Origin: an uncultured Croceitalea sp.
GTDB taxonomy: Bacteria > Bacteroidota > Bacteroidia > Flavobacteriales > Flavobacteriaceae
Reading direction: 5' to 3'
Assembly: GCA_937926215.1 (NCBI GenBank)
Contig: CALEYA010000018.1
Location: 1 to 53,925 of the forward strand
DNA: 53,925 nucleotides
Part shown: in pieces, positions 1 through 53,925 of the stretch
How positions within the stretch are numbered: position 1 is the first letter of the stretch
Layout of the letters: each line of letters opens with the position of its first letter
Notes under the pieces: model-generated
Databases searched by the model: none
Told to the model about the DNA's origin: nothing
The model's input: the letters and a program-made list of their open reading frames with translations, nothing else
Position numbers and translations under genes: made by a program

Positions 1-1
1 G

Positions 2-1483
2 AGCCTCATTTTTTTAGCGGTATTTACGGGACAAAGCCAGTCTTTTACGGCCAAAGTTATCGATGCCAAAACACAAAAACCTATTCCTTATGCCACAATC
101 CAATATGCGGAAAATAGTGGCGTCATTACCAATGAGGAAGGGCTTTTTAGTTTTTCTATAGATGCAGGTACCCAAACCTTGGACTCGCTTTACATCTCCA
201 GTATGGGGTATGAGCGAAAAGGCTATGTTTTTGAACAAGTAGCCCAAGACAGTATTTTGCTAATGACACCAAAAGCCATTGCCCTAAGTGGTGTCTATGT
301 TTTTGACAAAGAATTGGATGTGGAGGAAATCGTACAAAACATGGTGGACCGTTTGCCGCAGAACACGAACAAGGCACCCGTTAAGCAACGCTATTTTTTA
401 AGGCAGTCCGTTTTTGGTAGTGTACAGAAACTGGATATGGGTTTTGAAAAATCATCCATTGAAGAATTGGATAAAGAACTCATAGACAGCATTGCCGGGG
501 CCATTCCAAAATATTCAAGCCACTACACTGAGACTTTGGGGGATTTCTACAAGACCAAAGATGCCAACAAAGCCAACATCTTACGGGCCGCGGAGCTTTA
601 TGACAAAAAGGACATTGGTTCTTTTGAAGAATTGGGCAAACGTATGGAAACCATGTTCAAACAAAATGTAAAACCGGATTCTTACCTTAAGATCAAGTCG
701 GGGCTTTTTAGTCAAAAAATCCAAGTAGATTCCATTCTTTCGGATATCGAGGCAGAGGAGGCAAAAGCCGTTGAAAAGGAATTAGAGCGCGACAGTATCT
801 CTGGCCTTGTCGATAGTCAAAAATTCATCTTTGATGAACTATTGCAAGAAGTATTTTATGAAGAGGACAGTAAATTGAACGTGGTCCGTAAAAAAGGTAA
901 ATACAAGTTTAAATTGGTGGGATATGCCAATATTGAGGATGAAGGTGTCTATGTCGTCGACTTTAAACCCAAAAGAAGTGCTGCCTTCAAAGGGCGGATA
1001 TTTATCAATATTACGGATTTTGGGGTGATGCGAATCGATTTTGAAAACCTGAAAAACCTAAAGAATTTTAGGCTTTTGGGCATTTTCTATAGGGAGACCT
1101 TGTACAAAGGCTCCATGCATTTTACCAAACTTACCAATGGCAAGTACGACCTAAAATTTGCCGATTTCAATTTTGGAAGATGGTTTAGGTTTGATAGACC
1201 TTTGGACGTCATCGAAAAGAACAAACACGTAAAAGGGCGGCGAAAGCAGAACGAACTACGCTTAAATATCGATTTTAGAATGACCAATACCAATAAATGG
1301 GAATTGGTAATCTTTGATAGTGAAGTCATCGATCAGAACCAATTTGATGCGGTGGTGGAGGACAAAACCAAGAAATCCACCTATATGGCGCAATACAACC
1401 CAGAATTTTGGCAAGGTTATACTATTATGGAACCCAACCAAGCCATTAGGGAATTTACCGTTAGCGAGGAAGAATCAGAATAA
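2..1483 (+). CDS. Carboxypeptidase-like regulatory domain-containing protein, 5' truncated by window edge
   Basis: Frame is open from base 2 (SLIFLAVFTGQSQSFTAKVIDAKTQKPIPYATIQYAENSGVITNEEGLFSFSIDAG...), before the ORF-track start at 179. N-terminus matches the CarboxypepD_reg-like pattern; paralogous to the next CDS. Confidence 0.8.
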   Translation, partial: SLIFLAVFTGQSQSFTAKVIDAKTQKPIPYATIQYAENSGVITNEEGLFSFSIDAGTQTLDSLYISSMGYERKGYVFEQVAQDSILLMTPKAIALSGVYVFDKELDVEEIVQNMVDRLPQNTNKAPVKQRYFLRQSVFGSVQKLDMGFEKSSIEELDKELIDSIAGAIPKYSSHYTETLGDFYKTKDANKANILRAAELYDKKDIGSFEELGKRMETMFKQNVKPDSYLKIKSGLFSQKIQVDSILSDIEAEEAKAVEKELERDSISGLVDSQKFIFDELLQEVFYEEDSKLNVVRKKGKYKFKLVGYANIEDEGVYVVDFKPKRSAAFKGRIFINITDFGVMRIDFENLKNLKNFRLLGIFYRETLYKGSMHFTKLTNGKYDLKFADFNFGRWFRFDRPLDVIEKNKHVKGRRKQNELRLNIDFRMTNTNKWELVIFDSEVIDQNQFDAVVEDKTKKSTYMAQYNPEFWQGYTIMEPNQAIREFTVSEEESE

Positions 1484-1524
1484 ATAATCTTTTTCTTACA
1501 AGAATTGAAGAAAAAATGAGTTAT

Positions 1525-1551
1525 ATGGTAACGTAGTACCAACGTTACCAT
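1525..1551 (+). repeat. Perfect inverted repeat ATGGTAACGT-AGTACCA-ACGTTACCAT overlapping the start codon of the 1550 CDS
   Basis: 10-nt arms are exact reverse complements with a 7-nt loop; the last two bases of the 3' arm are the AT of the ATG at 1550-1552. Confidence 0.9.
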
Positions 1552-3034
1552 GAAGCAGTTTTTATGTCCCCTTCTATTTTTTTGTTTTCTACCACCCCTT
1601 TTTGGGCAACGGTATGCCTCCCAGGTAATTGATGCCACCACAAAAGCTCCAATTCCCTATGCCACCATACAGTATGGCCAAGAAATGGGTACCATAAGCA
1701 ATGAGGATGGTTATTTTAGTTTTGAGATCGATCGCTATACCAAACGATTGGACTCTGCCTATATCTCTTGTATGGGTTATGGAAAATCCGCATATGCATT
1801 CCACAAACTACAACAAGATAGTATCCTTATTGCCCCCCGATCAACCACATTGGCAGAGGTAGAACTTTACGGGGAAGGTTTGGACGCCGATGAAATTATT
1901 GCCCGCGTAAAAAAGATGGCCCCGGAAAACTATCAGCAATTGCCCGTAAAAAAGAAATTCTTCTTACGGCAGTCCACGCATGATGAAATAGACCGGGCGG
2001 AACTCAAGGTAGTTTCCTCTTCCATAGACCGCATCCACCAATACCTTTTGGACAGTATTACTAAGGCACTTCCTAAAAAATCAACCTACCACGCGGAAAC
2101 CCTGGGACATTTGTATAAAAATAAAGATAGTATTAAGCTTACCGTACTGCGCGCCGCGGAACTTTACGATAAGGCACACCAAGCTACTTTTGATGCCCTA
2201 TCGGACAAGCTGGAGAAAATTATTAAAGCCAACACTAAAGCGGACTCCTATTATAAAATAAAAACCGGGGTAGTCTCCACCAAATTCCGCTTTGATAACG
2301 CCAACAAAAATTCAAAAAAAGACCCTAATACTGCTGGACTAAAAGACCTTATACGCACCAATTTTCTGAGCAGGAGAAGAGAACGATTAAAACTGATAGA
2401 ATTTCAAGTTTTTGGTAAAAAGTCCCGTTTCGATGTCATCTCTAAATCTAAAAGATACGTTTTCACCCTTGTGGAGATTATTGATCAAGATGGTGAAAAC
2501 AGGCAATACGTCATTGACTTTTCACCTAAGAAAACAGCGGCCCTTAGTGGGCGTTTGTTTATCAACACCCATGACTTTGCCCTTACTAGGGTAACCTTCA
2601 CCAATGAAAAACCCTTAAAGCGATTAAAGCTTTTAGGGATAGACTACAACGAACCTCTTTACCAAGGCACCACGGTATATAGTAAAATGAAGAACGGCAA
2701 GTATGAACTATCCTTTTCCAAATTGGAACACCACCAATACCTAAAGGCGGAACGGCCTTTAAAAATTGTAGAGAAAAACAAGAATACAAAAGGACGCAGG
2801 CAACAAAACGAGGTAGTACTTGAGCTGTATTACACCGAAAAAAAGTCGCACACCTTTGAATGGGTAGCCTTGGAAAGCAAAGCGGGTAGCCAAAGTGCTT
2901 TTGAACTACTACCGGAAGACTTGGTGGGTGATTTAACCCACCTGAACAAATATGACCCCGCCTATTGGCAGGGCTATACTATTATAGAACCCAATAAAGC
3001 CTTACAAGCTTTTGAGGTAGCCCAATTGGACTAA
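1550..3034 (+). CDS. Carboxypeptidase-like regulatory domain-containing protein, tandem paralog
   Basis: 494 aa with signal peptide; VIDATTKAPIPYATIQYGQEMGTISNEDGYFSFEI; C-terminus (YDPAYWQGYTIIEPNKALQAFEV) closely parallels the upstream CDS (YNPEFWQGYTIMEPNQAIREFTV). Confidence 0.85.
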   Translation: MKQFLCPLLFFCFLPPLFGQRYASQVIDATTKAPIPYATIQYGQEMGTISNEDGYFSFEIDRYTKRLDSAYISCMGYGKSAYAFHKLQQDSILIAPRSTTLAEVELYGEGLDADEIIARVKKMAPENYQQLPVKKKFFLRQSTHDEIDRAELKVVSSSIDRIHQYLLDSITKALPKKSTYHAETLGHLYKNKDSIKLTVLRAAELYDKAHQATFDALSDKLEKIIKANTKADSYYKIKTGVVSTKFRFDNANKNSKKDPNTAGLKDLIRTNFLSRRRERLKLIEFQVFGKKSRFDVISKSKRYVFTLVEIIDQDGENRQYVIDFSPKKTAALSGRLFINTHDFALTRVTFTNEKPLKRLKLLGIDYNEPLYQGTTVYSKMKNGKYELSFSKLEHHQYLKAERPLKIVEKNKNTKGRRQQNEVVLELYYTEKKSHTFEWVALESKAGSQSAFELLPEDLVGDLTHLNKYDPAYWQGYTIIEPNKALQAFEVAQLD

Positions 3035-28356: not shown

Positions 28357-31300
28357 ATGAGAACAAGACTTAATGGAATCTTAACGCTTTTTATGGCGTT
28401 TCTCGTGCATTTTGCATTTGCACAGGACAAAACGATTTCAGGTACGGTTACAGACCCAGATGGTCTGCCGTTGCCTGGGGTTAATATTGTCGTTGAAGGT
28501 ACCTCTAATGGTACCCAAACGGATTTTGATGGATTGTACTCCATCACCGCTAGTCCGGGTCAAACCCTACTATTCAGTTACATTGGACAGAAAGATGTTC
28601 GACGGACTGTTGGGGCGGAGGCAGTGATCAATGTACAAATGCAAGAGGATGCGCAAGCTCTTGATGAAGTGGTTGTAACCGCCTTAGGTATTAAAAGGGA
28701 AAAGAAAGCGTTAGGTTACGCAGTATCAGAGGTTGGCCAAGAATCTTTGGAAAGTAGGTCAACAGGAGATGTTGGTAGAGTCCTAAATGGTAAAGTAGCT
28801 GGATTACAGATTACCAACCAAAGTGGTTTGGCGGGTTCGGGCACGAACGTGGTAATTCGTGGTTTGAGTTCCTTTAGCGGAAGTAACCAAGCACTTTTTA
28901 TTGTAGATGGCGTGCCATTCAATGCAGGCACAAATGCAGTATCTTCATCGACGAACAATAACGATAACAGGAACAGTTTTCTAGAAGGGAATTCCGGATC
29001 CAGTAGATTTTTAGATTTGGATCCGAACTCCATTGAAAGTGTTAACGTACTTAAAGGTTTAGCAGCAGCCAACTTATACGGTTCTTTAGGCCGTAATGGA
29101 GTTATTTTAATTACTACCAAGGGAGGTAGTAGTGCCGGAAAAGGTCCTAAGAAAACCGAAATTACGGTTAACAGTTCTTTCTTTTTTGATGAAATTTCCA
29201 ATTTACCGGAGTACCAAAACGAATTTGGTAACGGGGGTGACCAGTTGTTTCAACCGTTCTTCAGTAATTATGGTTCAAGCTTTAGAAGGGACAACGTGGC
29301 CAGTTTTGAAAACGATCCAGGTGTGCGAAATAGTGACCAAACCATTCCGCACCCTTTTTCCCAGTTCGATAGTCAGGCTTTAAGGGATGCTTTTCCAGAA
29401 TTTCAGAATGCCCGCTTAGCGTATATACCTTATAATAATGTAGAAGGGTTCTTTAGAAGAGGGGGTACCGCATCGACAAATGTAAACTTTAGAAAATCCT
29501 CGGAGGATGGTAAAACTTCTTTCAACCTAAACTATGGTAATTTGCAACAGACCGGTTTTACGCCAGGTAACGGGGTAACCAGAAATACGTTTGGCGTAGG
29601 AGGTAGAGCGGAACTTAGCAATAAATTTACGGTAAATGGTACCATTAACTTTGCACGCACCAACTTTAGGTCGCCCCCTGTAGCGGCTGCTTTAGGTGGT
29701 ACTGCTTCCGGCACACAGAGTTCGTCCTTATTTTCAAATTTATTTTTTACTCCTCGTAGTGTGGATTTGTTAGGGCAACCCTTCCAAAACCCGTTAACAG
29801 GTGGAAGCGTATTTTATAGAACGGGCAATGATATTCAAAATCCACTATGGACAGCGAACAATGCGGGAGTATCCCAAAGAACCAACCGTATTTTTGGTCA
29901 GGCTCAGGTTTCTTATGCCATAAATGATAACTTAAACCTATCCTATAGGGCTGGTTTGGATTTCTCTACGGAGTTCAACACCAACTTCCAAAACCGTGGC
30001 GGTATTGATGGTGGGGCCCGTCTGCAAACAGGTATATTGCAAACATTCACCAATGACAATACTATCTTCGACCACAACTTAGTGTTGACCGGTCAATATG
30101 AACTGAGCAGTCAGATTGGTTTCAATTTTACTGCTGGTGGTACCACCAGACGTGAATTGTTTGAAAGAAATGGGGCAAATAGTGATGGCCAGCAAGAATT
30201 TGGGGTGTTAAGACATTTTAACTTTGCAAATACCTTACCCATTCAGTTAACTACAGAGCGAAATATTGCTGGATTGTATGGCCAAGCTGAAGTCGATTAT
30301 GACGACTGGATATTTTTAACACTAGCAGGTCGTAACGATTGGGTATCAAACTTTGACATCGCTAATAGAAGTATCTTTTACCCCAGTGCCAGTGTCTCTT
30401 TCTTGCCTACCCAAATTATCGATGGCTTAAAGGGTAACGTTTTGAACTATCTTAAAGTTAGAGGTGGTATTGGAACCTCTGCCAACTTTGAAACTCAATC
30501 TGCTTTCCCCGTGGCAACCATTGTTAATCAAAATGTGCAGGATTTTCAGGATGACTCCGGAAATAACCTGGTAAGTCAACAACTCGGGGGCACACTTGGT
30601 AATCCAAATCTTCAACCTGAGACCTTAAGGGAAATCGAAGTTGGGATCGAATCCAGATGGTGGGACAACCGCATCAATTTGGATGTATCCCTATTTAGTA
30701 GGGTAACCAACGATTTGATCATACAACAGCCTCTAGACCCTGCAACAGGTTTCTTACAAACCAACACCAATATTGGTGAGGTTACCAATGATGGTATCGA
30801 AGTTGCTTTGGGCGTGGACATCTTCAGAGCCAAAGACTCTGGAGGGTTTAGCTGGAATTCTTCTGTGAATTTCACTGCACTTGACCCTGTGGTCACGGAT
30901 TTGGGACAAGAGACCGAACAAATTATATATTCCGGTTTTAGTAATTTAGGAAATGCCGCCATTGAAGGAGAGCCTTTGGGTGTGTTATTTGGAACACGTA
31001 TAGAGCGGGATGATAGTGGCAATTTAATTGTCGATTCCAGGGGAGACTACCAGTCGGCAACTGAGGACGGTATCATTGGAGATCCCAATCCCGACTTTAC
31101 CGCCAACTTCATAAATACCATCTCCTACAAAAACTTTACGTTAAACTGGCAAATAAATTACCAACAGGGGGGTGATATCTCTTCATCAACTATTGGCTCG
31201 CTATTGGCAAGGGGTGTTACCGAGGATACTGTAGATCGATTAGGGTCTTTTATCCTACCGGGGGTTAACGTAACCAGAGACGGTGACGGAAACATAACAT

Positions 31301-31650
31301 CCAGTACACCAAATACTACCCAGATAAGTGGATTTGATCTTTACTTCAGAAACCTCTCTGGATTCTTCGGAAAGCGTGAAGCTGCAGTTTATGATGCCAC
31401 ACACATTCGTTTACAGGAAGCTTCCTTGGCCTATTCGTTGCCACAGAAATTCTTGGACAGAACACCTTTTGGAAATTTGACATTTACAGTTTCTGGACGT
31501 AACTTGTTTGTAGAGGCGTTTAATACTCCAGATGGTATTAATTTTGATCCTAATGTTAACGGATTGGGTGTAGGTAACGGATCTGGATTTGACTTTTTGG
31601 CAGGACCTGCCTCTAGAAGCTACGGATTTGGGGTTAAGGCAACGTTTTAA
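28357..31650 (+). CDS. SusC/RagA-family TonB-dependent outer membrane receptor
   Basis: 1097 aa; signal peptide, ISGTVTDPDGLPLPGVNIVVEGT, LDEVVVTALGIKREKKALGYAV, plug and barrel, ends FGVKATF. Confidence 0.95.
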   Translation: MRTRLNGILTLFMAFLVHFAFAQDKTISGTVTDPDGLPLPGVNIVVEGTSNGTQTDFDGLYSITASPGQTLLFSYIGQKDVRRTVGAEAVINVQMQEDAQALDEVVVTALGIKREKKALGYAVSEVGQESLESRSTGDVGRVLNGKVAGLQITNQSGLAGSGTNVVIRGLSSFSGSNQALFIVDGVPFNAGTNAVSSSTNNNDNRNSFLEGNSGSSRFLDLDPNSIESVNVLKGLAAANLYGSLGRNGVILITTKGGSSAGKGPKKTEITVNSSFFFDEISNLPEYQNEFGNGGDQLFQPFFSNYGSSFRRDNVASFENDPGVRNSDQTIPHPFSQFDSQALRDAFPEFQNARLAYIPYNNVEGFFRRGGTASTNVNFRKSSEDGKTSFNLNYGNLQQTGFTPGNGVTRNTFGVGGRAELSNKFTVNGTINFARTNFRSPPVAAALGGTASGTQSSSLFSNLFFTPRSVDLLGQPFQNPLTGGSVFYRTGNDIQNPLWTANNAGVSQRTNRIFGQAQVSYAINDNLNLSYRAGLDFSTEFNTNFQNRGGIDGGARLQTGILQTFTNDNTIFDHNLVLTGQYELSSQIGFNFTAGGTTRRELFERNGANSDGQQEFGVLRHFNFANTLPIQLTTERNIAGLYGQAEVDYDDWIFLTLAGRNDWVSNFDIANRSIFYPSASVSFLPTQIIDGLKGNVLNYLKVRGGIGTSANFETQSAFPVATIVNQNVQDFQDDSGNNLVSQQLGGTLGNPNLQPETLREIEVGIESRWWDNRINLDVSLFSRVTNDLIIQQPLDPATGFLQTNTNIGEVTNDGIEVALGVDIFRAKDSGGFSWNSSVNFTALDPVVTDLGQETEQIIYSGFSNLGNAAIEGEPLGVLFGTRIERDDSGNLIVDSRGDYQSATEDGIIGDPNPDFTANFINTISYKNFTLNWQINYQQGGDISSSTIGSLLARGVTEDTVDRLGSFILPGVNVTRDGDGNITSSTPNTTQISGFDLYFRNLSGFFGKREAAVYDATHIRLQEASLAYSLPQKFLDRTPFGNLTFTVSGRNLFVEAFNTPDGINFDPNVNGLGVGNGSGFDFLAGPASRSYGFGVKATF

Positions 31651-31674
31651 AGAACATATCTAAAATTGAAAGAA

Positions 31675-33363
31675 ATGAAAAGAATAATTTATTTAATAGT
31701 TGGGTTCGCACTGATTATACAAACGCAGTCCTGTGAATCAACGGAATTGGATATTACAGAAAACCCCAATGCCCTAAGCGCCCCTAATGTAGACGGCCTG
31801 TTTATTACCATCCAGGAAAACTTTGTCAGACATATAGCTGGCGGGGGTACCGGGGAAGACTTTTTTGCTGGTGCTGGTGGCGGTCTTGATCAAGATGGAA
31901 TGGACCTTACCAGAATTGGAAACTTTTTTGGACAATTGTATAATAATCAGCTTCTAGCAGCTGCACAAGATGAAGAATGGGACAATGCCTACAGAGGAGT
32001 TCTACAGCAGATTGAGGCTTTGATACCTCTGGCCGAAGAAGAAGGGCTTTCCAGACATGTGGCCATATGTAGGTTTATTCAGGCATATGTTTATACTTCC
32101 ATGGTTGATTTTTTCGGTGATATTCCGTTCAATGATGCTTTACAGGCGTCAGAAGGTATTTTTGCGCCAACCTTAACTCCGGGAGCCGATGTTTATGCAG
32201 CAGCTTTTGGGTTTTTGGATCAAGCGGACGCCAACTTTACCAACGCTACGACTCGGGATCCATTTATTGACTTGTTTTATGACAATGATTTTGATCGCTG
32301 GCAATTGGCAACCAACACTCTTCGTTTAAAATTGTTGGCACAGACCCGTTTGGTGGATGCCTCTGCGGAAGGACAGTTCAATGCGATTATCAATAGTGGC
32401 AACTACATCCAGGATACGGCCGATGATATGCAATTCCAGTGGGGTACAGGAACTGCTAATCCAGAAACCAGGAATCCGCGATATGTGGACGGGTATTCCG
32501 TAACAGGAGCCAATGATTATATTGCCAATTGGTATATGGAACGGATGATGCTGTCCAATGATCCTAGAATTCGTTACATCATTTATCGACAGACCAATGG
32601 GGTACCTAGTGCAGATCTTCCCGGCTTGCCTCCAGATGCTGGGCAATTGGGTTGTTCTGTGATTACCAATCCTCCTCCACATTATCTTGCTGGTGGATTT
32701 ACATTTTGTGCTTTGGACAACGGATATTGGGGACGTGATCATGGAAGTGAAGAGGGGATTCCCGCGGATAACTTTCTACGATCAACCTGGGGCGTTTATC
32801 CCTTTGGAGGACGTTTTGATGATTCTCGTTTCACAGGCGGCGGCCTGACAACAGGGGCTCAAGGAGCAGGTATAACTCCGATCCTAACTGCTGGTTTGGT
32901 CCAGTTTTTACAAGCTGAAATGGCTATGGCAGCTGGAAATGAAACAGGCGCAGGAATGCTTTTACAACAAGCTATAGCTACCCATATAGATAAAGTTATG
33001 AACTCTGGAATTGAAGACCCTGATGCCGATATGTCTTTGGCACCCACTGCGGACAACGTATCTGATTTCTTAGCAGCTGTAGATATGGATTTCCAAAATG
33101 CGAATACTATGGGTAGGTGGAATGTATTGGGAGAACAATTTATTTTGGCTAGTGTAGGTTTGGGTATTGATTCCTATAATTTTTATAGAAGATCGAATTT
33201 CCCTACCACCTTACAGCCCAATATAAATCAAAATCCGGGTACGTTCATGAATTCATTATTTTACCCTGCAAACTCGGTGAATACGAATAGCAATATTTCC
33301 CAAAAATCAAACAATGGTGAATTTGTCTTTTGGGACACCAATGGTACCCCACCTGCTAACTAA
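31675..33363 (+). CDS. SusD/RagB-like outer membrane lipoprotein
   Basis: Lipoprotein signal IIQTQSC; immediately follows susC; SusD-like_2-type composition. Confidence 0.85.
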   Translation: MKRIIYLIVGFALIIQTQSCESTELDITENPNALSAPNVDGLFITIQENFVRHIAGGGTGEDFFAGAGGGLDQDGMDLTRIGNFFGQLYNNQLLAAAQDEEWDNAYRGVLQQIEALIPLAEEEGLSRHVAICRFIQAYVYTSMVDFFGDIPFNDALQASEGIFAPTLTPGADVYAAAFGFLDQADANFTNATTRDPFIDLFYDNDFDRWQLATNTLRLKLLAQTRLVDASAEGQFNAIINSGNYIQDTADDMQFQWGTGTANPETRNPRYVDGYSVTGANDYIANWYMERMMLSNDPRIRYIIYRQTNGVPSADLPGLPPDAGQLGCSVITNPPPHYLAGGFTFCALDNGYWGRDHGSEEGIPADNFLRSTWGVYPFGGRFDDSRFTGGGLTTGAQGAGITPILTAGLVQFLQAEMAMAAGNETGAGMLLQQAIATHIDKVMNSGIEDPDADMSLAPTADNVSDFLAAVDMDFQNANTMGRWNVLGEQFILASVGLGIDSYNFYRRSNFPTTLQPNINQNPGTFMNSLFYPANSVNTNSNISQKSNNGEFVFWDTNGTPPAN

Positions 33364-33376
33364 AAAATAACATAAA

Positions 33377-34285
33377 ATGAAATATTTTAAATTAATTTTA
33401 ATTTCTACGCTAGGATTCGTGTTTACGACTTCTTGCGAACCAGATGGAAATGTATTTATAGATGCAACTGATACCTTAGAATCCGGTATAGTTGTAAGAA
33501 CATTGTCCCTTACGGGAACTGCTTTTGATTTTTTCGATGTCCCAGCGGGCGAACTTGATGTAGACTTTGAAATCCAAGCACCAGAAGGTGATGAAGTCGC
33601 CGAGGTACGGATCTTTGGAGATTTCCAAGACAATACTTTTTTCGATTCAGAATTCAATACCAATGGAACCACCGCGGTTGATGAGACCTTGTTGCAAACG
33701 ATTGCGGCTTCCGAACTGACGGTAGGTCGTTTTGGATTCCCAACGGGAAATTTCTCCTTTACTTACCAAGAATTATTGGATGCCTTGAATCTTCAAAATA
33801 ACTTGGACACCGTTTTCAATTCTGACCAATTTGTTGTTCGTATTGAGGTCGAATTAACGGACGGAAGGGTATTTTCCAATGATGGGACCAATTCACCTTC
33901 TTTGGAAGATGGATTTTTTCTTTCTCCTTTTCGTTATTTTTCAACCATCGTTTGCCCTATTGTGGTAACCGGTGATATCACCATTGAGTTTGAGGACACC
34001 TTTGGAGATGGTTGGAACGGTGCTGCAATTGTTGTGGTCAGTGATGGTGAAGAATCTTCCTTTACATTAGATAATGGAGGATCAGGTTCCGTAACTTTCT
34101 CCATTCCCGACGCCGTTGCAACACAGAGCTTCTCATTTTCTGGCGGAAGTTTTGACGAGGAAGTGGGTTATGTTATAACTCGGGTTTCCGATGGCAGGGA
34201 ATTGGCTTCTTTCAGTCCATCTTCTGATGGTCCCCCGGACGGCCCTATAACTTTAGATACCGGTACAAATCCTTGTGTCCGTTAA
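33377..34285 (+). CDS. Lipoprotein of unknown function, third gene of the SusCD locus; C-terminal DTFGDGWNGA-type domain
   Basis: 302 aa; lipobox FTTSC; EFEDTFGDGWNGAAIVVVSDGEESSFTLDNGG. Confidence 0.7.
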   Translation: MKYFKLILISTLGFVFTTSCEPDGNVFIDATDTLESGIVVRTLSLTGTAFDFFDVPAGELDVDFEIQAPEGDEVAEVRIFGDFQDNTFFDSEFNTNGTTAVDETLLQTIAASELTVGRFGFPTGNFSFTYQELLDALNLQNNLDTVFNSDQFVVRIEVELTDGRVFSNDGTNSPSLEDGFFLSPFRYFSTIVCPIVVTGDITIEFEDTFGDGWNGAAIVVVSDGEESSFTLDNGGSGSVTFSIPDAVATQSFSFSGGSFDEEVGYVITRVSDGRELASFSPSSDGPPDGPITLDTGTNPCVR

Positions 34286-49579: not shown

Positions 49580-52500
49580 ATGAAACAGTATTTACCCATT
49601 CTCCTTATGGTTTTCTTTTCGCAATTTAGCAGCAGTCAACAACAAGCGGATTCCTATGAAACGCTTTGGGCAAAGGTTTTCAAATTGGAAACGGAGGCAT
49701 TGACCAAATCCGCTTTGGAGCTGGTTTCCCAAATACAGGAAAAAGCAAAAAAGGAAGGGAATGAAGTACAGCAGGTAAAAACCTTGCTATTTACCGCTAA
49801 GTACACCCTAATTCTAGAGGAGGATGCCAAGTTAAAGGTAATCAACGACTTAAAAGAAGCTATCGCCAACTCAGAAACGCCGGTATCCAATGTAATGGAA
49901 AGTTATCTGGCCAATCTGTACTGGCAGTATTTTAAACAGAACCGCTATCTTTTTTACAATAGGACGGAAACGGAGGAAAAAGTAGATGACACGGATTTCA
50001 GGACTTGGGACCTTACCACCTTATTTAAGGAAGTAGGCCTTCACTTTGACAATTCCTTACAGCATCCTGAGGTACTCCAGAATACCAAAATAGGGGATTT
50101 TGAAGGTATTTTGGAGTATTATGCTTCTTCTGATAGCTACAGACCCACGCTTTTTGATCTTTTGGGCCATACCGCTTTGGAGTTTTATAAATCGTCTGAA
50201 AGTAGCATCAACAAACCCTTGGATACCTACAAGATAACGGACAGCGAACTGTTTTGTGACGCCGCCACCTTTGCCGGTTTGGCTTTACCGGAACCCCAAG
50301 CGGTTTCGCTACAGCTCAAGGCCTTAAAAGTATATCAAGCACTTACCCAATTCCATTTGACGGATGACCGGCCGGAGGCTTTGGTGGCCTTGGATTTGGA
50401 ACGCCTGCAATTCCTATATGCCAATGCCCTGGTTGATGGAAAGGATACGAAATACCTGGAAACCCTAAAAAATGCAGCTGAACGGTACAAAGATCAGGAG
50501 GTCTCTGCATTGTATTCCTATGAAGTGGCAAGGGTCTATCAGCAACAAGGAAACCGCTATTCACCACAAAAGGAGGGCACCCACAGATGGAGGCTCAAAG
50601 AGGCCTTGGAACTGTGTGATGCGGTTATCGCCAACTACCCCAAAAGCAAGGGTGCCGAAAAATGCATCGTCCTCCGCGGGGAACTCCTCCATACACAACT
50701 GGAACTTACTACGGAACGCTACCTCCCCAACGCTACAGAAGCGAAGCTCTTGGTCAACTATAAAAACCAGAATGACTTGGCCCTTACGGCCTATACCGTT
50801 TCCCAACGCCAACTAAAAAAACTCCGCGAACTGTATGAACGGGAGAAACAACTGGCCTTTATCAAAAAATTGAAACCTGCAAAACAGTGGCAAGCCCATT
50901 TGATCAATGAGGGCGACTACCAGCCCCACAGCATTGAAGTCGCCTTGCCTTCACTACCCCACGGACAATATTTGATCTTTGCTACCCCCAATACGGCAGA
51001 AACGGAAGCGGAAAAGAGTTTTGCTTACAGTGCCGTAAACGTTACCAACCTGAGCTTAAACCAGCGTAGTACCGAGACGGAAATGCTATTTCAAGTGGTG
51101 GATAGAAGGGATGGAACGCCCAAAAAAGATGCGAAACTCACCTTAAGTTACCGCAAAAATTACCGGGGCAATGTGCAATTACGCACTATACTTACCAATG
51201 CCATGGGTTTTGCCAGTTTTCCGTTAAGCACTGCCAATTTTAGGGTGGATGATATTAAAGTGGCGCATGCCGATGAAACCGCTTTTTTTGGAAATACATA
51301 CATCAACTCCAAAACACGGAAAAAGAAAGAAAAGGTCACTTATGAAACCTTTTTCTTTTTGGACCGAAGCATTTACAGACCCGGCCAACCTGTATTTTTT
51401 AAAGGAATAACGATAGAAAGGGACGGCAAGGTGACACAACCCGTTACAGAAGAACTGGTCACCGCGGTACTGCATGACGCCAATGATCAAAAAGTAGCGG
51501 AACTGGATTTGGAAACCAATGCTTACGGTTCATTTTCGGGGGAATTTGTACTGCCCAATGGCGGACTCAACGGACAGTATCGGTTGGAGGTCTATGGAGC
51601 ATCTAGCTTAATTGACGCTTCGCATTACTTTTCCGTGGAGGAATACAAACGCCCAAAATTTGAAACCTCCTTTCAAGCCGTGACCGAAAGCTACCAATTG
51701 AACGATAGCATTACGGTTACCGGAAAAGCGGATTCTTATGCCGGTAGTCCCATATCCGACGCCAAGGTGGCCTATCGCGTGCAGCGAAACGTGAACTATC
51801 CAGGTTGGTTTTATTGGCGAAGGTCCTATGTGTATTCCGAACCCCAAGAAATAGCCTTTGGGGAAACGGTGACCAAAGCAGATGGCACCTATGCTATCGA
51901 TTTTAAAGCCATTCCGGATTTGTCCGCTAACAAGAAGGACCTTCCTGTTTTTTCCTATACGGTCACTGCCGATGTTACGGATATCAATGGGGAAACCCGG
52001 AGCGCAAGCACTATTGTCCAAGTAGGATACCATGCGCTTACCGCAACCATTGGTATAGCAGCGCGATTGGAGCAAAGCCAGAAAGAACATGAATTAACCA
52101 TAAACACCCAAAACCTTAACGGGCAACCCATAGCCACCAAGGGAACCGTAAAAATGTACAAATTACTAGGGCCTGATGCCGTCCTAAGGCCTCGCCCATG
52201 GATTGCGCCCGACTATCAGACATGGACCAAGGAAGCCTTTAGAAAACGATTCCCCCATGAAGCATATGGCGATGAACAGGACCTTAATACCTGGAAAAAG
52301 GGAGCACAGGTTTGGACTGCCGCATTTGATACGGAAAAGGAAACGAAAGTCCTGTTGAAAAATATCAAAAAATGGACCCCGGGCCAATACATCATTGAAC
52401 TGGAAACCCAAGATAAGTTTGGACAGTTGGTGACCACTAAAACTAAAACCACCCTTTTTAAGGAAAAAGAAAAGACCTTGGCGGACAACCAATTGTTCGA

Positions 52501-53925
52501 TGTTCTTCTAGATCGACCGACCTATGCCCCGGGCGATACCGCGGAACTATCATTTTACACCAATGCAGAAAACCTAAAGGTTAGCTATTGGGTAGAAAAG
52601 CAAAACACCATTGTAAAACGCGGTGTCCTACACCTTAAAAAAGGCTGTGAGTCCCTACAAGTGCCCGTTTTGGAAGAGGATTTAGGCGGATTCTCCGTCA
52701 ATTACAGCTACTCGGTCTATAATTCCTTTCAGGCAGGGAGTGTAGCCGTTTCCGTGCCCTACCCTAATACCGATTTGGAAGTTACCACCAACACCTTTCG
52801 GGACAAAATAGCTCCGGGTACGGACGAAACTTGGAGTTTTAACATTAAAGGTCCCAAAGGCGAAAAGGTAACCGCAGAAATCTTGGCCAGCATGTATGAT
52901 GCCTCTTTGGACCAGTTTAAGGGACATAGTTGGTATTTTAATCCCATACGAAGACCTTACCATTACAGCATTTCACAAGCGAATGCCAACCTGAGTTTTG
53001 GCAACCAAAATTTTAGTAGTTATCACCCAAATTCCGGTTTTGGTGCCATAGCAAATCCATCTTACAGCAAGCTGGATTGGTTTGGGCTAAGTTTTGGGAA
53101 TTCGCGCTGGGCGCAACAACAGTATATTAGAAAAAGTCGCGCAAGGCTGTCGAACAGTTCATACCATTTAAGTTCAGTACCAAAAGGAACCATAGAAGGT
53201 ACGGTATTTGATGATTTTGGCCTACCATTGCCCGGAGTAACTGTTATAGTAAAAGGTACCACTAGAGGCACACAAACCGATTTTAATGGAAGATTTCAGA
53301 TTAAAGCAAAAGCAGGCGAGGAATTGGTTTTATCATATATTGGATACGATTCAAATACCTTAAAAGTAAATGCCCATAATCACTTTGATATCCATTTGAG
53401 GGAAGATTCCAGCAAATTGGAAGAAGTAGTTGTTACAGCATTGGGTGTCAAAAGAGAAAAGCGTGCTCTTGGTTATGCGGTAAGTTCTATTAGCGAAGAT
53501 TCACTAGAAGCAGAAGCGGACGTGGCAACAACTCTGGAGGGGCGTGCCGCTGGGGTACAGATAGCGAAAAATGCACCAGCACCCCCACAAGAAGGGCAGA
53601 AAGAGGAGCTCAAGGAAACCAATTTTGATCAAGTGCAGCTTCGGAAAAATCTACAAGAAACCGCCTTTTTCTTTCCGCACCTTAGCACGGACAAAGAAGG
53701 CAACGTAAGCTTTAGTTTTACCACACCGGAAGCACTCACCCAATGGAAATTACAGCTCTTGGCGCATACCAAGGATCTAAAGCAAGGTACTGCCGAATTG
53801 ACCACCGTAACCCAAAAAGAACTCATGGTCCTTCCCAATCCCCCGCGTTTTTTAAGGGAAGGGGACAGCATAACCCTAAGCACCAAAATTGCGAACCTAT
53901 CCGCCAAGGATTTGCAAGGTTCGGG
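49580..53925 (+). CDS. Alpha-2-macroglobulin family protein with embedded SusC-N-terminus-like segment; 3' truncated by window edge
   Basis: Manual translation is open from ATG 49580 to the window end (over 1440 codons). MG-type motifs FFFLDRSIYRPGQPVFFKG, YRLEVYGASSLIDASHYFSVEEYKRPKFE, RKNLQETAFFFPHLSTDKEGNVSFSFTTPEALTQWKLQLLAHT. Not in the ORF track because no stop occurs in the window. Confidence 0.92.
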   Translation, partial: MKQYLPILLMVFFSQFSSSQQQADSYETLWAKVFKLETEALTKSALELVSQIQEKAKKEGNEVQQVKTLLFTAKYTLILEEDAKLKVINDLKEAIANSETPVSNVMESYLANLYWQYFKQNRYLFYNRTETEEKVDDTDFRTWDLTTLFKEVGLHFDNSLQHPEVLQNTKIGDFEGILEYYASSDSYRPTLFDLLGHTALEFYKSSESSINKPLDTYKITDSELFCDAATFAGLALPEPQAVSLQLKALKVYQALTQFHLTDDRPEALVALDLERLQFLYANALVDGKDTKYLETLKNAAERYKDQEVSALYSYEVARVYQQQGNRYSPQKEGTHRWRLKEALELCDAVIANYPKSKGAEKCIVLRGELLHTQLELTTERYLPNATEAKLLVNYKNQNDLALTAYTVSQRQLKKLRELYEREKQLAFIKKLKPAKQWQAHLINEGDYQPHSIEVALPSLPHGQYLIFATPNTAETEAEKSFAYSAVNVTNLSLNQRSTETEMLFQVVDRRDGTPKKDAKLTLSYRKNYRGNVQLRTILTNAMGFASFPLSTANFRVDDIKVAHADETAFFGNTYINSKTRKKKEKVTYETFFFLDRSIYRPGQPVFFKGITIERDGKVTQPVTEELVTAVLHDANDQKVAELDLETNAYGSFSGEFVLPNGGLNGQYRLEVYGASSLIDASHYFSVEEYKRPKFETSFQAVTESYQLNDSITVTGKADSYAGSPISDAKVAYRVQRNVNYPGWFYWRRSYVYSEPQEIAFGETVTKADGTYAIDFKAIPDLSANKKDLPVFSYTVTADVTDINGETRSASTIVQVGYHALTATIGIAARLEQSQKEHELTINTQNLNGQPIATKGTVKMYKLLGPDAVLRPRPWIAPDYQTWTKEAFRKRFPHEAYGDEQDLNTWKKGAQVWTAAFDTEKETKVLLKNIKKWTPGQYIIELETQDKFGQLVTTKTKTTLFKEKEKTLADNQLFDVLLDRPTYAPGDTAELSFYTNAENLKVSYWVEKQNTIVKRGVLHLKKGCESLQVPVLEEDLGGFSVNYSYSVYNSFQAGSVAVSVPYPNTDLEVTTNTFRDKIAPGTDETWSFNIKGPKGEKVTAEILASMYDASLDQFKGHSWYFNPIRRPYHYSISQANANLSFGNQNFSSYHPNSGFGAIANPSYSKLDWFGLSFGNSRWAQQQYIRKSRARLSNSSYHLSSVPKGTIEGTVFDDFGLPLPGVTVIVKGTTRGTQTDFNGRFQIKAKAGEELVLSYIGYDSNTLKVNAHNHFDIHLREDSSKLEEVVVTALGVKREKRALGYAVSSISEDSLEAEADVATTLEGRAAGVQIAKNAPAPPQEGQKEELKETNFDQVQLRKNLQETAFFFPHLSTDKEGNVSFSFTTPEALTQWKLQLLAHTKDLKQGTAELTTVTQKELMVLPNPPRFLREGDSITLSTKIANLSAKDLQGS
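53180..53581 (+). other. SusC-N-terminus-like segment (CarboxypepD_reg-like domain + EEVVVTALG string + first part of plug) inside the alpha-2-macroglobulin CDS
   Basis: KGTIEGTVFDDFGLPLPGVTVIVKGTTRGTQTDFNGRFQI...LEEVVVTALGVKREKRALGYAVSSISEDSLEAEADVATTLEGRAAGVQIAKNAPAP aligns along its length with the N-terminus of the SusC-like protein at 28357. Confidence 0.85.

Follow-up and report, generated by a model that had tools for sequence, protein, structure and literature searches.

Why does an alpha-2-macroglobulin (A2M) gene carry, within its own reading frame, the front end of a SusC receptor? The question is raised by the window, as we call the whole 53,925-nucleotide stretch analysed here, which is one entire contig (CALEYA010000018.1) of an uncultured Croceitalea sp. 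A reading made from the letters alone had noticed about 130 residues resembling the SusC N-terminus inside the A2M, and had suggested that they were copied from a susC-type gene or that, through them, TonB or an outer-membrane partner might tether or gate the trap. The A2M frame is still open at the contig end, and a search of the assembly did not find the 3' part of the gene; orthologs in relatives are longer, most of them 2013-2222 aa. The protein has a signal-peptide-like N-terminus; among the N-termini listed for the window A2M and its orthologs, none shows a lipobox cysteine. Pfam finds MG2, A2M_BRD, CarbopepD_reg_2 and A2M in this sequence, which preserves the domain order of the A2M family. 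The thioester CxEQ stretch would lie past the contig end; the ortholog from genome G007 has CNEQ, most other orthologs have C-x-EQ, one has N in place of the C, and in a few no such string was found. The features on which the argument turns are the following.

28357-31650, plus strand: SusC of the same contig, about 50% identical to the insert
49580-53923, plus strand: alpha-2-macroglobulin family protein, reading frame of 1448 aa, stop-free to the contig end
51347-51637, plus strand: MG2 domain, residues 590-686 (PF01835, E 1.4e-18)
52502-52849, plus strand: A2M_BRD domain, residues 975-1090 (PF07703, E 1.3e-7)
52931-53647, plus strand: bait linker between the MG8-like and MG7-like domains, corresponding approximately to E. 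coli YfhM 916-975
53192-53434, plus strand: SusC N-terminal extension (NTE, CarbopepD_reg_2), residues 1205-1285 (PF13715, E 1.1e-19), with a predicted fold
53417-53446, plus strand: Ton box LEEVVVTALG, residues 1280-1289, predicted disordered
53447-53584, plus strand: truncated start of the SusC plug (VKREKRALGYAVSS...GRAAGVQI), predicted disordered
53660-53917, plus strand: A2M domain (PF00207 by Pfam), MG7-like, immediately 3' of the bait

The likeness to SusC is borne out by profile searches. A2M residues 1204-1335 (nucleotides 53189-53584; query 53165-53596) match positions 2-134 of the 981-position SusC/RagA model TIGR04056 of NCBIfam with E 7.4e-43, and in a PDB search the insert matches solved SusC chains with E 6e-17 and weaker. 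The extent given in the sequence-only reading, namely NTE, TonB-box region and plug start without a barrel, agrees with the Pfam and NCBIfam positions. The NTE is followed by the Ton box as in SusC, while the plug is incomplete, since Pfam Plug is not found and the SusC match stops at model position 134; neither Pfam nor NCBIfam detects any outer-membrane barrel family in the window A2M protein, which thus lacks the 22-strand barrel, or any receptor sequence between about 53584 and the string RKNLQETAFF at 53642. The Ton box is homologous to DEVVVTG of BT1763, whose solved NTE shows a folded domain beside a disordered Ton box (PMC7782687). The reported richness of the insert in A/T-ending codons proves real in a GC3 scan: most of the insert has values of 0.20-0.32, most of the A2M gene 0.48-0.52, and the SusC of the window 0.34-0.38.

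Where in the A2M does this module sit? When a profile of 17 orthologs is aligned to E. coli YfhM (E 2.5e-9), the stretch from the MG8-like domain to RKNLQETAFF lies opposite approximately residues 916-975 of YfhM. The disordered bait of the latter protein is Arg923-Leu942 (PMC4498604). Because the linker spans this published bait, the receptor-derived module occupies the bait region of the A2M, the role of the region as a cleavage trap being assigned from the alignment. This location had been overlooked in the sequence-only reading, and it changes the likely job of the module. An AlphaFold2 model built on 41 aligned sequences predicts a confident NTE (pLDDT 91-96 over most of its length) flanked by disordered stretches; both the Ton box and the piece of plug fall in the disordered part. 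In Foldseek comparisons the NTE matches the crystal structure of the SusCdex NTE (9hfj; TM 0.88 by target, rmsd 0.8), and the A2M scaffold matches C3, A2M and ECAM. The NTE is again folded in a second model, one with a full plug (L048), where pLDDT rises to about 80 in parts of the plug.

Orthologs collected from 59 relatives, from 80 named loci, mostly of Flavobacteriaceae, and from 398 genomes of the phylum demonstrate that the architecture is widespread. The SusC N-terminal profile matches 78 of 181 distinct bait linkers (E < 0.01) and none of 905 shuffles; 66 of the matching linkers are found among the 116 of the window's family, the other 12 in seven other families. Of the 137 linkers scanned, TIGR04056 matches 54, an NTE-type sandwich occurs in 38-39 and Plug in 24, and the Pfam domains found in more than a few baits are all of these two types. 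An extended Ton box pattern is present in 39 of the 181 linkers, in no shuffle, and nowhere in the 246,285 residues that make up the rest of the same frames, which together rule out a chance motif. The module described from the window is present, but it is not one fixed module: some baits of relatives contain NTE, Ton box and complete plug, others no more than short remnants, and others nothing of the kind. In over half of the bait regions no receptor piece can be recognised, which means that A2Ms in general can function without the module. A search of an open-access full-text library found no paper on this architecture. In one bait linker (L175) a thrombospondin-3-like repeat was observed (PF02412, E 3.3e-4), and the ends of two further baits of its family (L147, L158) bear similar D-x-DGV-x-D strings.

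The controls were E. coli YfhM, in which none of the receptor motifs is found, and the paralogous A2M only. This second A2M of the window's genome (1856 aa) and of relatives, taken from 20 loci in 19 genomes, contains no SusC piece detectable by profile (E <= 1). Those baits of the paralogs (L271-L288, mostly frames of 1830-1883 aa) that could be extracted by pattern are short and look strongly conserved, whereas the bait is variable in the class to which the window A2M belongs. The absence of the module from the second A2M and from many orthologs defeats the objection that the segment is merely a carboxypeptidase-like sandwich generic to all A2Ms, which the SusC match rules out as well.

From which genes could the module have come? 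The window insert is 50-56% identical to the SusCs of one group and 44% identical to the insert borne by the G007 ortholog, the two A2Ms being 81% identical over the whole protein. The sequence-only suggestion of a copy from a susC-type gene gains support from this higher identity to SusC than to the ortholog's insert, from the profile matches and from the susC-like GC3. The SusC of the same contig is the best-scoring among the own-genome susC matches listed, and in many relatives a matching SusC and the A2M lie no more than about 35 kb apart. In A2Ms of other families the donors appear to be different. Over 163 aa, the bait of the G363 A2M shares 62-64% identity with receptor reading frames (980-990 aa) found in G363 itself and in a sister genome. 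The G074 bait shares 59% identity with a SusC of G074 itself, and the G189 bait 54% with a relative's Oar-like receptor; NTE and Plug were found by Pfam in the three receptors examined (L256, L262, L265). Since these modules are 54-64% identical to receptors of other classes from their own or a related genome, capture has happened more than once. The comparisons support derivation of the window insert from a SusC-type gene, and of inserts elsewhere from other TonB-dependent receptors. Among the SusC-type inserts, a tree of 39 inserts and 30 SusCs intermixes the two kinds with 10 changes. The AU test does not reject a single clade of these inserts (p 0.37), nor the grouping of the window and G007 inserts, so many origins within this type are not established and separate origin rests on the other receptor classes. 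Family searches with three linkers (L161, L182, L225) returned no receptor family and PDB searches with two (L161, L224) returned none; the kinship of L161 and L182 to receptors came from genome searches.

What could the front end of a receptor do in the bait of a protease trap? Given the architecture, bait location, receptor origin and repeated capture, we put the probability that the bait of this A2M is a docking site for TonB at roughly 45%. The bait of this Bacteroidota A2M class has repeatedly taken up a receptor front end, consisting of the NTE, the Ton box and part or all of the plug, and the trap would thereby have become a TonB client, with the C-terminal domain of TonB pairing with the Ton box in the disordered bait and the folded NTE next to it serving as a grip or specificity element. 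Docking would hold the trap at the TonB and receptor sites of the envelope, with its bait where TonB works, and a protease cutting the bait would both spring the trap and release it from TonB. This reading is favoured by the Ton box being the most retained receptor piece and by its predicted disorder beside a folded NTE, the arrangement of the solved BT1763 NTE. In 140 linkers devoid of an NTE, the part of the SusC profile covered most often is the Ton box, in 37-38 linkers, compared with about 5 at the NTE and 9 in the late plug, and at most 1 in one shuffled set; the Ton box is likewise covered in about 40 of the 41 NTE-bearing linkers. Such retention could also arise if loss of the whole NTE and truncation of the plug are easy deletions. 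The module-free baits, the AU result and a lineage (L074) that has the NTE but a degraded Ton box count against TonB docking, as does the gene neighbourhood. Genes around 18 orthologs were grouped, giving neighbours common to up to 14 loci (by eye from sequence, an Mpl-like ligase, a TPR protein, Obg, adenylate kinase, RadC and a cupin), and in the sequences that were read from these conserved neighbours neither TonB nor ExbBD was recognised. Elsewhere in the window, at 2-3034, two similar tandem reading frames (493 aa, 5'-open, and 494 aa) each open with a CarboxypepD-like string, and NCBIfam gives no family for them. A bolder reading, to which we give a somewhat lower probability, is that many Bacteroidota run a TonB-coupled trap, built more than once from different receptor classes, in which TonB holds, and may pull, the bait through the captured Ton box, linking envelope energy to trapping.

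Another reading, which we consider less probable than docking, leaves TonB uninvolved: the bait would be a decoy that mimics a flexible, protease-sensitive periplasmic segment of abundant receptors and so lures the proteases that attack them. The insert does sit in the very segment whose cleavage springs A2Ms, and what has been captured of SusC is always the N-terminus that faces the periplasm and in no case the barrel. Some recurrent pieces in baits (GKVAGV, IRGxxS and the plug end) come without a Ton box, and in 11 permuted linkers the plug string GKVAGV precedes the Ton box, opposite to the order in SusC; both observations are easier to reconcile with a cleavable mimic than with a binding domain. 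The abundance of the putative model is a further point. At 28357-34285 the window holds the SusC, a SusD-like reading frame and a small lipoprotein-like reading frame, beside fusA and ribosomal genes, and this SusCDE-like set, to which the closest own-genome susC among the matches listed belongs, is syntenic with the A2M. In F. johnsoniae, a SusCDE complex ranks as one of the two most abundant components of the outer membrane (PMC12611786), and the window's set may correspond to it (Fjoh_0403-0405). A candidate identity of the neighbouring SusC as the BAM subunit BamG was rejected, BamG being a FadL-type protein. A folded NTE kept by purifying selection, however, is more than a cleavable peptide requires. 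In three pairs of relatives (L058/L060, L155/L160, L093/L119) dN/dS is 0.05-0.13 over the 85 residues preceding the Ton box, and the NTE is under purifying selection in these pairs; in other pairs, including the window and G007, values go up to 0.75. Retention that peaks at the Ton box, rather than spreading evenly, also speaks against a mere decoy.

Could the inserts have no function at all? If the bait were the sole place that accepts insertions, recombination with the very common susC N-termini might keep replacing a tolerated filler, a proposition that we regard as unlikely. Its strength lies in the dynamics of the bait, the protein sequence of which evolves faster than the flanks: between the window and G007 A2Ms identity is 0.29-0.60 in the insert and 0.84-0.94 over most of the gene. 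On the A2M tree, some branches of which are uncertain, the state of the NTE changes at least 25 times and that of the plug 14 times, and the Ton box tail of the window is closer to the SusC of the same contig than to the tail of the ortholog. The contents of the baits count against filler. The barrel, which forms the larger part of susC, is found in 0 of 181 linkers (window SusC query, E <= 0.01) compared with 61 for its N-terminus, and the recurrent Pfam domains are confined to sandwich and plug. The second A2M of these genomes has none of them although the same donors are available to it, different receptor classes were captured in different A2Ms, and the low dN/dS of the NTE in three pairs is unexpected of a functionless sequence. 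In one of those pairs, the Tenacibaculum linkers L058 and L060, dS is 0.22 in the linker against 0.67 in the flanking domains (224 flank codons compared), as if the bait had been exchanged between two Tenacibaculum lineages later than its surroundings. Finally, a misassembly or a chimera in which an A2M and a fragment of susC were joined, to which the composition shift at the insert and the interruption of the gene by the contig end might point, and which the sequence-only reading had named as a possible fault at 53180/53581, is refuted because many independent assemblies, some of them from isolates, show this architecture at the corresponding position, with 80 named loci read there and many carrying the same or related pieces, and because the G007 ortholog has its own insert.

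How does this class compare with known systems? E. coli YfhM/ECAM and Salmonella SaA2M share with it the MG2, A2M_BRD and A2M domains, the C-x-E-Q of most orthologs and a bait placed by alignment between MG8-like and MG7-like domains; the class differs from them in the receptor NTE, Ton box or plug held by its bait, in showing no lipobox cysteine at the N-termini listed, and in that no adjacent pbpC was recognised among the neighbour sequences read. With SusC/RagA the insert has in common the N-terminal 134 model positions, the NTE fold and the Ton box string, but it is without a barrel, its plug is truncated in the window, and it is embedded in another protein. Complement C3, C4 and C5 carry the anaphylatoxin domain between MG6 and MG7, and likewise have a folded extra domain where A2Ms carry the bait, although the anaphylatoxin is an unrelated domain and a released signal. 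One further protein of G074 (L263; reading frame 1-2442, minus strand) is of the vWA/YfbK type with CarbopepD_reg_2 and Plug and no barrel family found, and the bait of the G074 A2M matches it at 60%. It likewise sets NTE, Ton box and plug on a non-receptor body, which here is vWA/YfbK rather than A2M. Inner-membrane-tethered vWA proteins have been proposed as force transducers (PMC12204202).

Little is known of the threats that bacterial A2Ms counter or of how their bait is chosen. Should the bait of this class be a TonB client, TonB would gain a client that is no transporter of the outer membrane, and trapping would be coupled to the site where large molecules enter the cell. If it is instead a decoy, the bait would name the substrate that the trap protects. 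On either reading the Ton box offers a single short site that can be altered, and since the module also occurs on a vWA/YfbK protein, there may be a larger group of proteins that bear receptor modules without the barrel.
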